This document shows, piece after piece, positions 3,080 to 15,966 of a DNA stretch of 20,698 nucleotides; within the stretch, counting starts at the first letter, position 1; the number at the start of each line of letters is the position of its first letter. Origin of the DNA: a virus; the IMG/VR virus record IMGVR_UViG_3300008117_001005, positions 1-20,698 of that record. One strand, given 5' to 3'. A program made the translations under genes and the position numbers. The notes under the pieces were generated by a model, which worked only from the letters and a program-made list of their open reading frames with translations, was not told where the DNA came from and ran no database searches.

Positions 3080-3423
3080 TCAGGGTTTTCTATTAGTAAA
3101 CTTTTTTACCACGCAATCCTCTGAAACCAGCACCACATATACAATATCGCGTAAGCGAAAAATTTAAAAACTCACCCACTTAGGGGGACGGGGGGTAACT
3201 ACGTCAGATGGGGAGTGGTGAACGAGCAGGGGAATCGGGCAAATATGGGGTATGGGGGTTCCGTTTTTGGTTTTGGGTTTTGGTTATGGGTTACGGGCAA
3301 TTGCTTGATGTGGTTGGGTTGTAGGGTGGTTTAGTGGTTGCAATGTGGTAGTAGTGGCAGTGGTAGTAGTCAGGCAGGTGGATGCGGTATGTTGTTTGTA
3401 TTGAGAAAGAAATGAGAGGGATT
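3080..3423. other. Non-coding G-rich stretch with quadruplex potential
   Basis: No convincing gene is present. From about 3183 to 3395 the plus strand is strikingly rich in G and poor in C, unlike the rest of the window. A canonical quadruplex motif lies at 3229-3258: four runs of at least three G (3229-3232, 3237-3239, 3247-3250, 3254-3258) with loops of 4, 7 and 3. A second array, 3269-3296, has five runs of 2-3 G every 5-7 nt, telomere-like in look. Further on, GTGGTAGTAGT is repeated at 3345-3355 and 3360-3370. The stretch may be an origin or control element, or a packaging-related site; the sequence alone does not decide. Confidence 0.5.
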
Positions 3424-3438
3424 ATGTAGCTACATTTG
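3424..3438 (+). promoter_or_regulatory. -7 box overlapped by a 12-bp perfect palindrome
   Basis: ATGTAGCTACAT (3424-3435) is a perfect palindrome, and TACATTTG (3431-3438) is an exact -7 box sharing its right half. This arrangement fits a repressor operator. No -33 box is found at normal spacing. The predicted start, near 3445, falls just before the iterons and the zinc-ribbon gene. Confidence 0.45.
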
Positions 3439-3446
3439 GATTTTAT

Positions 3447-3482
3447 CGTAACAAATCGTAACTTAGCGTAACAAATCGTAAC
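3447..3482. repeat. Four CGTAAC iterons at 10-bp period
   Basis: CGTAAC occurs at 3447-3452, 3457-3462, 3467-3472 and 3477-3482, exactly 10 bp apart, ending 2 bp before the ATG at 3485. The 4-nt gaps differ (AAAT, TTAG, AAAT), so the hexamer is the conserved unit. Spacing of one helical turn suggests cooperative protein binding, as in iteron origins or operators; because they fall in the 5' leader they might instead act on the mRNA. Confidence 0.75.
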
Positions 3483-3484
3483 AC

Positions 3485-3766
3485 ATGATAAAGAAAAAAG
3501 AAAATTGCGAATATTGCGGTGAAAAAATGGAAAGCAAAACAGCCAAAAAAAGGTTTTGTTCTGACAAGTGTAGAGTTTATTTTAGCAGAGAATCAAAAAA
3601 CGCGCCCATTATCGCAGAAACGGCTAAAATTTCGATTAAAATAGAAAAGCCGATAAATACTATTAAAACACTAGAAACGCAAAAAAACGAGCTTGTAATT
3701 GAAAAAATAGAAAAGAAAAGCTCATATGATCCATTTAGTAACCCAAGATTTAAAAATAAATTATAA
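3485..3766 (+). CDS. Small zinc-ribbon protein
   Basis: A 93-aa protein with an N-terminal zinc ribbon: Cys8-x2-Cys11 (CEYCG) and Cys25-x3-Cys29 (FCSDKC) followed by Arg, the pattern of FCS-like or CxxC-type zinc fingers that bind nucleic acid. Residues 40-93 are Lys/Ile-rich and probably disordered or helical. It is the only plus-strand gene between the leftward units, sits directly behind four CGTAAC iterons, and its stop lies against a terminator that serves the opposite strand. Autoregulation through the iterons is plausible but unproven. No more specific function is recognised. Confidence 0.75.
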   Translation: MIKKKENCEYCGEKMESKTAKKRFCSDKCRVYFSRESKNAPIIAETAKISIKIEKPINTIKTLETQKNELVIEKIEKKSSYDPFSNPRFKNKL

Positions 3767-4572: not shown

Positions 4573-4603
4573 TTTGGAATTTGAAATAAATACTTTTACT
4601 TTG
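4573..4603 (+). promoter_or_regulatory. Rightward promoter for the replication operon
   Basis: TTTG (4573-4576), 19-nt spacer, TTACTTTG (4596-4603), seven of eight matches to TAnnTTTG. TTTAC (4595-4599) and GTAAA (4608-4612) form a dyad around the -7 box, a possible operator. The start falls near 4610, which places the upstream TTG at 4574 before the transcript and favours the ATG at 4625 as the first start. Confidence 0.6.
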
Positions 4604-4624
4604 TCTTGTAAACAACTAAAATTT

Positions 4625-4831
4625 ATGGAAAAACAAACTACTTATGACGCAAGAGATGCGATCTTACTGCATTTGGATGAAATTGAAAGAAATCTTTCTT
4701 GGTTGTCTGAAAAGACTGAAATACCCTACCCGACATTATACTCGGTATTTAAACAAAAGCACTTTGCTTTATCTGAAAAGAATTTAACAAAGATTAATTC
4801 TGTTTTAAACAAAGATTTTCAAATTAATTAA
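4625..4831 (+). CDS. Cro-like helix-turn-helix regulator
   Basis: Starting at ATG 4625 the product is 68 aa. Residues about 24-62 (LSWLSEKTEIPYPTLYSVFK, then a helix ending INSVLN) form a compact Xre/Cro-type helix-turn-helix: a helix with L-x-x-L-S, a turn at T-E-I-P, and a recognition helix around YPTLYSVFKQ. A start at TTG 4574 would add 17 residues but would begin upstream of the predicted transcription start, so ATG 4625 is preferred. Its position, first in the rightward replication operon beside divergent promoters, fits a Cro-like repressor of early transcription. No CI-like partner or integrase is present in the window. Confidence 0.7.
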   Translation: MEKQTTYDARDAILLHLDEIERNLSWLSEKTEIPYPTLYSVFKQKHFALSEKNLTKINSVLNKDFQIN

Positions 4832-4841
4832 TAAGACTAAA

Positions 4842-5603
4842 ATGGCTAAAAGATTCACTGACACAGAGAAGTGGAAAAAACCTTTCATAAGGGGCTTACA
4901 AGGGCCTTACAAGCTCCTTTGGCTATACATTTGTGATGATTGTGATCATGCAGGTGTGTGGCAAGTAGATTTAGAGGTAGCTTCAATAAGAATAGGCGAA
5001 CCTTTATGTTTACCAAAAGCAATTGAATCTTTTGGAGATAAGATTGTAATTTTTGATAATGGACACAAATGGTTTATACCTTCTTTTTTAGAATTTCAGT
5101 ACCCTAGTGGACTTAATCCAGACAATAGAGCGCATAGTAGTATCATCTTTTTGCTTGAAAAATACAATTTAAGAAAAATACAAAATAAGCCCCTTACAAG
5201 CCCCTTACAAGGACGTAAGGATATGGATATGGTTAAGGATATGGATAAGGATAAGGATAAAGAAGGAAAAATTGAAAAAATTAAAATGATTTTTACAGGA
5301 ATTGAAATTGAGGAAGCGTGGGATTCTTGGAAAGAGTTTAAGCAAGCACAATACAAGTTCAAGTATAAAACTTTAAAAAGCGAACAAGCTGCATTTGATG
5401 AACTTGTCCAATTGTCCGGAAGTAATGTGCAAACAGCTATTCAAATCATAAATCAATCTATGGCTAAAGGGTGGAAAGGATTGTTTGCATTGAAAAGCGA
5501 GCCGACAAGTGGGGTAGTTAGACAAAAAAGTTGGTACGAACAAGATTTAGAAAACAAAAGGAAGGCATTTAAACCCATAGAACAACATGATAACAATATT
5601 TAA
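4842..5603 (+). CDS. Replication initiator / helicase loader
   Basis: A 253-aa protein of the type that opens replication modules in Bacteroidota phages. The N-terminal part, residues 1-110, starts MAKRFTDTEKWKKPFIRGL and is probably a winged-helix DNA-binding domain. Residues 111-147 form a charged linker of Lys-Asp repeats (KDMDMVKDMDKDKDK). The C-terminal part, about 155-216, ends in NQSMAKGWKGLF, resembling the Ala-x-x-x-x-x-x-G-W-x-G-(L/I)-F motif that ends DnaD/DnaT-like helicase-loading domains. The domain plan mirrors lambda O. The gene itself contains two pairs of CTTACAAG repeats (4895-4913, 5193-5211), a possible origin. It overlaps the primase-helicase by 17 nt, implying coupled translation. 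Confidence 0.7.
   Translation: MAKRFTDTEKWKKPFIRGLQGPYKLLWLYICDDCDHAGVWQVDLEVASIRIGEPLCLPKAIESFGDKIVIFDNGHKWFIPSFLEFQYPSGLNPDNRAHSSIIFLLEKYNLRKIQNKPLTSPLQGRKDMDMVKDMDKDKDKEGKIEKIKMIFTGIEIEEAWDSWKEFKQAQYKFKYKTLKSEQAAFDELVQLSGSNVQTAIQIINQSMAKGWKGLFALKSEPTSGVVRQKSWYEQDLENKRKAFKPIEQHDNNI
4895..4913. repeat. Initiator-gene iterons, first pair
   Basis: CTTACAAG at 4895-4902 and 4906-4913, an 11-bp period, inside the initiator gene. The two copies are read in different codon phases, so protein sequence does not explain the repeat. Confidence 0.7.
5193..5220. repeat. Initiator-gene iterons, second pair, with inverted arm
   Basis: CTTACAAG at 5193-5200 and 5204-5211, again 11 bp apart, followed by an inverted arm: CCTTAC (5203-5208) and GTAAGG (5215-5220). 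The pair lies at the junction between the DNA-binding part and the charged linker, followed by purine-rich repeats (about 5216-5275). This resembles the lambda origin, which lies inside gene O. Confidence 0.65.
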
Positions 5604-15307: not shown

Positions 15308-15766
15308 ATGATAGATCCAATGACAGCCGGAGCCATATTAAGCGGAGTTAGCGCGCTAGGCAAAGGTATATTTGGTATGAGCCAAATGAACAAGGCTAAC
15401 CAATTAAATCCTCAATTTGCAGAATACAAAGAGAATCCTTTAGCTAGACAAAATCTAGGCGCAGCTCAACAATTGTTTTATGGCAGAACGCCGGGCATGA
15501 GTCAAGCTCAAGCTAATATTCAAGCAGCTCAAGCAAATCAATTAGCAGCAGGTCAAAGAGGTGCAACTGATTCTGCAACATTGTTAGCACTAGGTGCTGG
15601 ATCTCAAGGTGCAACTAATGCAGCGTTATCAAATCTTGCAGCACAAGAAGGTCAGCAAAAAATGGGTATGTTTGATAATTTAAGTAGAGCATACGCCATG
15701 TCTATTGGAGAAGGCGATACGCCATGTCTATTGGAGAAGGCGATAAGGTGCAACAAAATAAAATGA
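15308..15766 (+). CDS. Putative ejection/internal virion protein, N-terminal part (frameshifted)
   Basis: A 152-codon frame whose first about 137 residues are a coherent Ala/Gln/Gly-rich protein (MIDPMTAGAILSGVSALGKG; QANIQAAQANQLAAGQRG) with a hydrophobic N-terminus suited to membrane insertion. The last residues (TPCLLEKAIRCNKIK) are out of character: they come from a shift caused by a 26-bp tandem duplication (15691-15745). Removing one unit joins the reading to 15724-15966 and gives 210 aa. Place (after the tail protein, first of three) and size recall the smallest ejected internal virion protein of podoviruses, such as T7 gp14; this is inference. Confidence 0.6.
   Translation: MIDPMTAGAILSGVSALGKGIFGMSQMNKANQLNPQFAEYKENPLARQNLGAAQQLFYGRTPGMSQAQANIQAAQANQLAAGQRGATDSATLLALGAGSQGATNAALSNLAAQEGQQKMGMFDNLSRAYAMSIGEGDTPCLLEKAIRCNKIK
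15691..15745. repeat. 26-bp tandem duplication causing a frameshift
   Basis: Bases 15691-15716 are repeated exactly at 15717-15742, with three further matching bases. Because 26 is not a multiple of three, the second unit shifts the reading frame. Deleting one unit gives one continuous 210-aa protein. Confidence 0.95.
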
Positions 15767-15966
15767 TGAAATTCCAATTTGATGCAAATGCACAAAATGC
15801 ATTACGCCAATCTGGTATTAGTAATATATTTGGTGGAGCAAGCGACATTGCGGGAGGAGTAATGCAATATGGTAGTTATCAAAATGCGCAAGAAGCAAAT
15901 GCAAACCAAAGTGCATATAATGAAATGTTGAGAAAGGCTTTTTTGCAAAAACAATTTGGAGTATAA
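15724..15966 (+). CDS. C-terminal part of the frameshifted ejection-type protein
   Basis: The frame from the ATG at 15724 (80 aa) starts within the second copy of the duplication: MSIGEGDKVQQNKMMKFQFD. It ends with a Gln/Asn/Ala-rich tail (NAQEANANQSAYNEMLRKAF). It continues the composition of the 15308 frame and was almost certainly its C-terminus before the 26-bp duplication. Independent translation from this ATG is possible but unproven. The next gene starts 12 nt later. Confidence 0.55.
   Translation: MSIGEGDKVQQNKMMKFQFDANAQNALRQSGISNIFGGASDIAGGVMQYGSYQNAQEANANQSAYNEMLRKAFLQKQFGV

Follow-up and report, generated by a model that had tools for sequence, protein, structure and literature searches.

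The window, by which we mean the whole stretch of 20,698 bases that was analysed (IMG/VR virus record IMGVR_UViG_3300008117_001005), carries phage genes that family searches assign to an exonuclease, NinG, an O-like replication protein, a primase/helicase, an SSB and structural proteins, and its primase is nearest in likeness to the primases of Flavobacterium and other Bacteroidota phages. At 15691-15745 there is a perfect 26-bp tandem duplication, the meeting place of the overlapping frames 15308-15766 and 15724-15966, which looks like a frame-breaking duplication or an assembly error. The locus studied here comprises a small zinc-ribbon gene and the DNA before it, with these features:

3180-3423, + strand: non-coding tract rich in G and T that precedes the promoter, diverges rapidly and travels with the unit
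3424-3435, no strand assigned: 12-bp palindrome ATGTAGCTACAT, perfect, with no further extension; an optional element
3435-3438, + strand: TTTG, predicted -33 element, the tail of TACATTTG
3447-3452, + strand: hexamer 1, inside the -33/-7 spacer, a place occupied in 31/31 promoters
3457-3462, + strand: hexamer 2, overlapping the predicted -7 box
3459-3466, + strand: TAACTTAG, predicted -7 box, TAnnTTTG with one mismatch
3467-3472, + strand: hexamer 3, over the predicted transcription start, where 31/31 promoters have a hexamer
3477-3482, + strand: hexamer 4, within the short leader and ending 2 nt upstream of the ATG
3485-3766, + strand: gene for the 93-aa zinc-ribbon protein, ATG at 3485
3506-3589, + strand: N-terminal zinc ribbon CxxC...FCSxxC, residues 8-35 of the translation

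The earlier note had described four CGTAAC hexamers exactly 10 bp apart that run up to the start codon, and these are indeed present, at 3447, 3457, 3467 and 3477, with AAAT, TTAG and AAAT between them. When all hexamers were considered at periods 7-30, this was the only site in the window with four copies of one hexamer at a fixed period. Among 300 dinucleotide shuffles a four-copy 10-bp array never arose and a three-copy array arose in five; the CGTAAC array is not due to chance. Single CGTAAC words are unremarkable (7 in the window vs. 3.1 expected), and the search for RNA families returned none at gathering score.

The 93-aa protein has only sub-threshold Pfam matches (zf-RRPl_C4 and DUF2116, the latter a 'probable treble clef'), and family searches including Pfam matched it to no curated DNA-binding family; this type of zinc finger is also known from proteins that do not bind DNA. 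AlphaFold2 predicted a helix at residues 27-39, with block means of 76-90 over residues 1-40, and Foldseek gave no match with E <= 0.001. Named phage records yielded a single weak match to the window protein and none to the proteins of two relatives discussed below (L335 and L020). PHROGs matches of the ribbon proteins are mostly of unknown function. What the relatives' proteins share is the N-terminal ribbon, while their C-terminal tails vary.

Relatives were gathered by protein searches and by DNA patterns, and 48 zinc-ribbon loci were read from the start codon, of which 34 were non-redundant in ribbon and operator. Loci dropped before this count were L366, L379/L021 and L380, where GIY-YIG comes first and the ribbon second (a TATATTTG-like box is followed by a single exact CGTAAC, and there is an inverted site as well); L373 and L381, which are distant and have degenerate arrays; L382, which is cut inside the gene; and L022-L028, L383, L385 and L388, which are unrelated or array-less. 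The degenerate array of L373, whose ribbon reads FCSARC, lies over the promoter region and has eight near-matches to CGTAACA within 150 nt before its start codon (233), against a shuffle mean of 0.64 (0/500). One contig (IMGVR_UViG_3300032323_002596) contains two copies of the unit in inverted orientation a few kilobases apart (L375 and L384), which is either an inverted duplication or an assembly artefact.

The earlier note had made its reading depend on conservation of the repeats in relatives that keep the gene. None of the 34 non-redundant loci lacks hexamers before the gene; the last hexamer is always 1-3 nt from the ATG, and the array is kept across proteins down to about 34% identity.

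Beneath the array lies a core promoter consisting in the window of TTTG (3435-3438), N20 and TAACTTAG (3459-3466). TAnnTTTG and a -33 TTTG have been described as Bacteroidota promoter signals, the -33 TTTG not having been recovered genome-wide in F. johnsoniae (PMC7366714, PMC9723704). For the count we took only upstreams of at least 60 nt, which left out two of the 34 loci as too short (L352 and L371), and accepted as box TAnnTTTG or a one-mismatch form ending in TTAG or TTTA. The Bacteroidota-type pattern NTTG-N19-21-TAnnTT(TG/AG/TA) was found in 31/32 upstreams vs. 0.9% of dinucleotide shuffles, a count that measures presence and not evolutionary replication, because the relatives are not independent. 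At the locus L010 there is an array without a recognisable -33 box, on a contig that gives only 44 nt upstream of the array. Three relatives (L016, L018 and L020) have exact boxes, respectively TATATTTG, TATGTTTG and TACATTTG, in register with the window's TAACTTAG. If the -7 box is taken as spanning -12 to -5, as in PMC9723704, transcription would start near 3471.

The hexamers occupy this promoter in a consistent manner. In all 31 promoters one hexamer lies inside the -33/-7 spacer and one lies between the -7 box and the start, or over the start; at least one falls in the predicted leader (31/31), where copy number varies, and 15 of the 31 have a hexamer upstream of the -33 element as well. 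The spacing of one helical turn, from which the earlier note had argued for cooperative binding, does not hold as a rule: exact 10-bp phasing occurs in only 9/31, the remaining spacings being 11, 12, 13 and 18-23 bp, and of these 12, 13, 18 and 23 bp fit poorly with a simple same-face assembly. Phase is thus less conserved than the hexamer itself and its promoter position, which weakens the argument for cooperative same-face binding. Where 10-bp phasing is present, any additional 10-bp units lie exclusively downstream of the -7 box, with the -33/-7 spacing kept at 19-20; the relative L002 has a 3-nt insertion directly after the -7 box.

A perfect palindrome at 3424-3435 overlapping an exact TAnnTTTG match (TACATTTG, 3431-3438) had been read in the earlier note as an operator over a -7 box. 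Both elements exist, and neither role is supported. The whole palindrome occurs in only 2/34 non-redundant loci and its core TGTAGCTACA in 7/34, and on this count we reject it as the operator. In other loci an extra hexamer occupies its place upstream of the -33 element, so the palindrome may be an alternative accessory site; loci without an upstream hexamer have the palindrome core in some cases and neither in others. As a main -7 box, TACATTTG is broken by a 1-nt insertion in five relatives (L002 and L011-L014), which keep its TTTG tail despite the inserted base, and the conserved -7 box sits 28 bp farther downstream. Upstream of TACATTTG the first TTTG comes only at a distance of 32 nt, so that TACATTTG as a -7 box would have no -33 partner. 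It is possible that the window has two promoters.

Upstream of the promoter the G/T-rich tract stands out in composition (GC 0.50 and GC skew +0.68 at 3201-3400, vs. a GC of about 0.3-0.4 around it), and upstream DNA was G/T-rich in 26/26 loci examined. In most close pairs the tract diverges faster than gene and operator; the pair L011/L012, for instance, has identities of 0.964 in the gene, 0.958 in the operator and 0.644 in the tract. The unit is found at more than one genomic position: in the window and L002 it lies between a 65-aa gene and NinG, and in L010, L012 and L020 these two genes adjoin and the unit is elsewhere. By our own table count 33 of 52 distinct contigs (excluding the unrelated L383 and L385) end within 350 nt of the start codon. 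We considered and rejected the tract as a genome end: the far ends of four such contigs gave no sign of a circle closing at the tract, and the distance at which the contig ends differs even between phages that are nearly identical. In our view these contig ends are best explained by assembly breaking off in the variable tract.

The sites are nearly confined to the arrays. Of the 35 matches to CGTAACAAA in 11 virus records totalling 432 kb, 33 were inside arrays; the reversed pattern gave 15 matches, and no second CGTAACAAA cluster was found. Hexamer pairs at 10 bp were seen in arrays only, in seven of eight records searched, the eighth having its array at other spacings. Such confinement to the promoter to be regulated is what an autoregulated operator would have, and the sites also overlap the core promoter of their own gene, as operators do (31/32 upstreams with the promoter; 31/31 of these with hexamers). 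A CGTAAC triple taken alone is not specific, because in other phages at least 120 stretches contained one and a reversed control hexamer still gave 51 stretches; matches to the triple in genome contigs came from mixed taxa and were not counted as support. Among the matches listed were unrelated phages (L037, L041, L055, L118 and others) with CGTAAC arrays before a gene that, from reading translations, we label terminase-small-subunit-like; at a guess, these arrays might be packaging or control sites.

The protein and its putative sites appear to change together, as the earlier note had suggested looking for. Two loci found via protein alignment, not through their DNA, have CGTATC at the array: L335 in four of four copies, and L350 in four copies with one further CATATC. 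Both have the usual promoter layout, and the base that differs falls within the unconstrained nn of the -7 box. The ribbon changes F24Y, D/E27A/N and V/I31L occur only in these CGTATC loci: F24, D/E27 and V/I31 are found in 32/32 CGTAAC loci, and Y24, A/N27 and L31 in 2/2 CGTATC loci. Among the 34 ribbon columns (residues 4-37), four separate the two classes without overlap (24, 27, 31 and 37), residue 37 being variable anyway. Searches for more CGTATC loci gave none beyond L335 and L350. The L335 genome is close to the window (93% identity in the tract, 87% upstream and 88% downstream), and yet its operator and ribbon show no closer likeness to the window's than to those of other phages. L350 belongs to another genome group. 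Over 170 nt the segments of L335 and L350 share 79% identity, so the hexamer switch may be one ancestral event. The hexamer-ribbon pair either travelled as one or had two origins, and a careful count is one event; the three linked substitutions may be hitchhikers. Given the helix that AlphaFold2 places at 27-39, residues 27 and 31 would be one turn apart, and residues 24, 27 and 31 may take part in DNA recognition.

What the sequence shows is a set of sites, their placement in the promoter, their near-confinement to one gene and a joint change of hexamer and protein. The reading we consider probable, though by no means assured, is that the array is an autoregulatory operator bound by the protein's own zinc ribbon. 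The core promoter would drive the zinc-ribbon gene, with hexamers filling its spacer, -7 box, start site and short leader. The N-terminal ribbon would most likely read one hexamer per subunit, its reading element being the helix (residues 27-39) that follows the second pair of cysteines, and accumulated protein would cover the promoter and turn off its own transcription. We infer both that the protein binds the array and that it represses rather than activates. The central proposal of the earlier note, a protein-binding control site of the zinc-ribbon gene whose leading candidate ligand is the gene's own product, is supported by the 34/34 linkage, the cover of the promoter and the covariation; its palindromic operator and strict phasing are not supported.

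Many operators are read by a regulator that is not encoded next to them, and the ligand might instead be another phage or host regulator, with the ribbon protein only the regulated product. A candidate is at hand in a small gene nearby (4574-4831, 85 aa) that we read as HTH-like, without a family match, and small proteins of this kind (clusters C13 and C26) precede the O-like gene in many relatives. Such a regulator is nonetheless unlikely: the hexamer switch tracks the zinc ribbon, arrays precede the zinc-ribbon gene in 34/34 loci in more than one genome arrangement, and the 11 records hold no second CGTAACAAA cluster. The joint change of hexamer and ribbon would likewise be left unexplained if the ribbon acted mainly on a host target and the array tuned its level via some other factor, which we regard as very improbable. 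The ribbon pattern does recall the gyrase inhibitor YacG, and the C-terminal tails vary between relatives, as might suit such a role; the Foldseek matches to YacG are weak (E 5.4) and YacG is absent from Pfam matches up to E 0.1, which does not amount to a match of the 93-aa protein to that family. It is also improbable, if less so, that the ribbon binds CGUAAC repeats in the mRNA leader and blocks its own translation. The leader sites that would allow this, at least one per promoter, variable in number and the last one 1-3 nt from the ATG, are accompanied in 31/31 promoters by a hexamer in the untranscribed -33/-7 spacer and in 15/31 by one upstream of the -33 element, and the change in L335 affects all four copies, transcribed or not; it is the universal sites in untranscribed spacer that make control at the RNA level less likely.

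A role in replication, as an iteron-type origin or auxiliary origin element, is suggested by direct repeats at one turn beside a G/T-rich, strongly skewed tract, with replication genes downstream, and the earlier note had accordingly raised autonomous replication by this fragment. In place of long iterons by an initiator gene there are 6-bp words within a promoter, the adjacent product is a zinc ribbon, and the position of the array varies relative to replication and recombination genes. An origin role is unlikely because the O-like gene has internal repeats of its own in 9/9 copies examined (mostly 11-bp units and purine tracts in mid-gene), and autonomous replication by the array finds no support in this arrangement. 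We rejected the origin as the main reading and give it very little credence. In the window the O-like gene (4842-5603) has mid-gene tandem repeats at 5157-5260, some of them purine-rich; lambda also has repeats within its O gene, and those at 5157-5260 are a candidate lambda-type replication origin.

Taking the operator bound by its own ribbon as the preferred reading, we further propose, tentatively and with less confidence than we place in the operator itself, an undescribed family of phage regulators in which a minimal ribbon, some 35 residues long, recognises a word of 6 bp, and in which residues near the second pair of cysteines (24, 27 and 31) switch the specificity. Operator and ribbon would form a mobile cassette of Bacteroidota phages together with a fast-changing G/T-rich tract, and would be combined with GIY-YIG nuclease domains and exchangeable tails. 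Autoregulation as such is classical, while the ribbon as reader and the hexamer code appear to be undescribed; a search spanning part of the literature found no description of this module. Should the proposal be true, a very small zinc ribbon would regulate in a sequence-specific way, with two natural specificities (CGTAAC and CGTATC), and the proposal would point to a function for the ribbon proteins, most of whose PHROGs matches have none assigned.

Known systems resemble the unit in part. In iteron-controlled replicons, direct repeats about one turn apart are bound by a protein encoded next door, and the array shares with them its repeats at about one turn and a candidate ligand gene next door; it differs in having 6-bp units in a promoter, no initiator and a separate origin candidate in the O-like gene. 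Cro and CI are HTH dimers that bind inverted repeats, with several sites over the regulator's own promoter; multiple sites over the own promoter are the likeness here, whereas the window has a zinc ribbon and direct hexamer repeats. Chromosomal proteins of Bacteroidota with 115-122 aa (L390, L392, L397, L399, L402 and L406), which a profile built from the phage family retrieved, have the same N-terminal ribbon pattern CxxC...DKKFCSDxCR; unlike in the phage family their C-terminus is longer and conserved, and the upstream DNA of those read had no CGTAAC array. Three of seven homologues (L410, L411 and L412) have, before a chromosomal zinc-ribbon gene, GTAGA triplets at a 9-bp phase opposite TCTAC triplets. 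These arrays look like an inverted pair lying partly inside an upstream reading frame, and we did not count them as support.

Some relatives carry a nuclease domain. In L020, with which L018, L019, L352 and L371 align, GIY-YIG follows the ribbon (Pfam E 3.3e-10), and in L021 it precedes the ribbon (E 3.3e-6). The middle part of L020 may be a ribbon-helix-helix; AlphaFold2 on L020 was unusable (mean pLDDT 37.1). These fusions recall I-TevI of T4, a GIY-YIG and zinc-finger protein that binds an operator over its own promoter and represses it (PMC2988022). The unit has in common with I-TevI a phage zinc-finger protein, in some relatives fused to GIY-YIG, an operator (here a proposed one) overlapping its own promoter, and a self-contained gene at more than one place in related genomes, and the promoter and hexamer architecture of the window would fit autorepression of this kind. 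The window protein itself has no GIY-YIG domain, and because the nuclease domain is absent we do not class it as a homing endonuclease. Its promoter is of Bacteroidota type; several copies of one hexamer take the place of one long homing-site-like operator; and the presumed reader is the ribbon itself. If our reading is right, the theme of I-TevI, a mobile and self-limiting phage gene, would extend to Bacteroidota phages with a different DNA-reading element.
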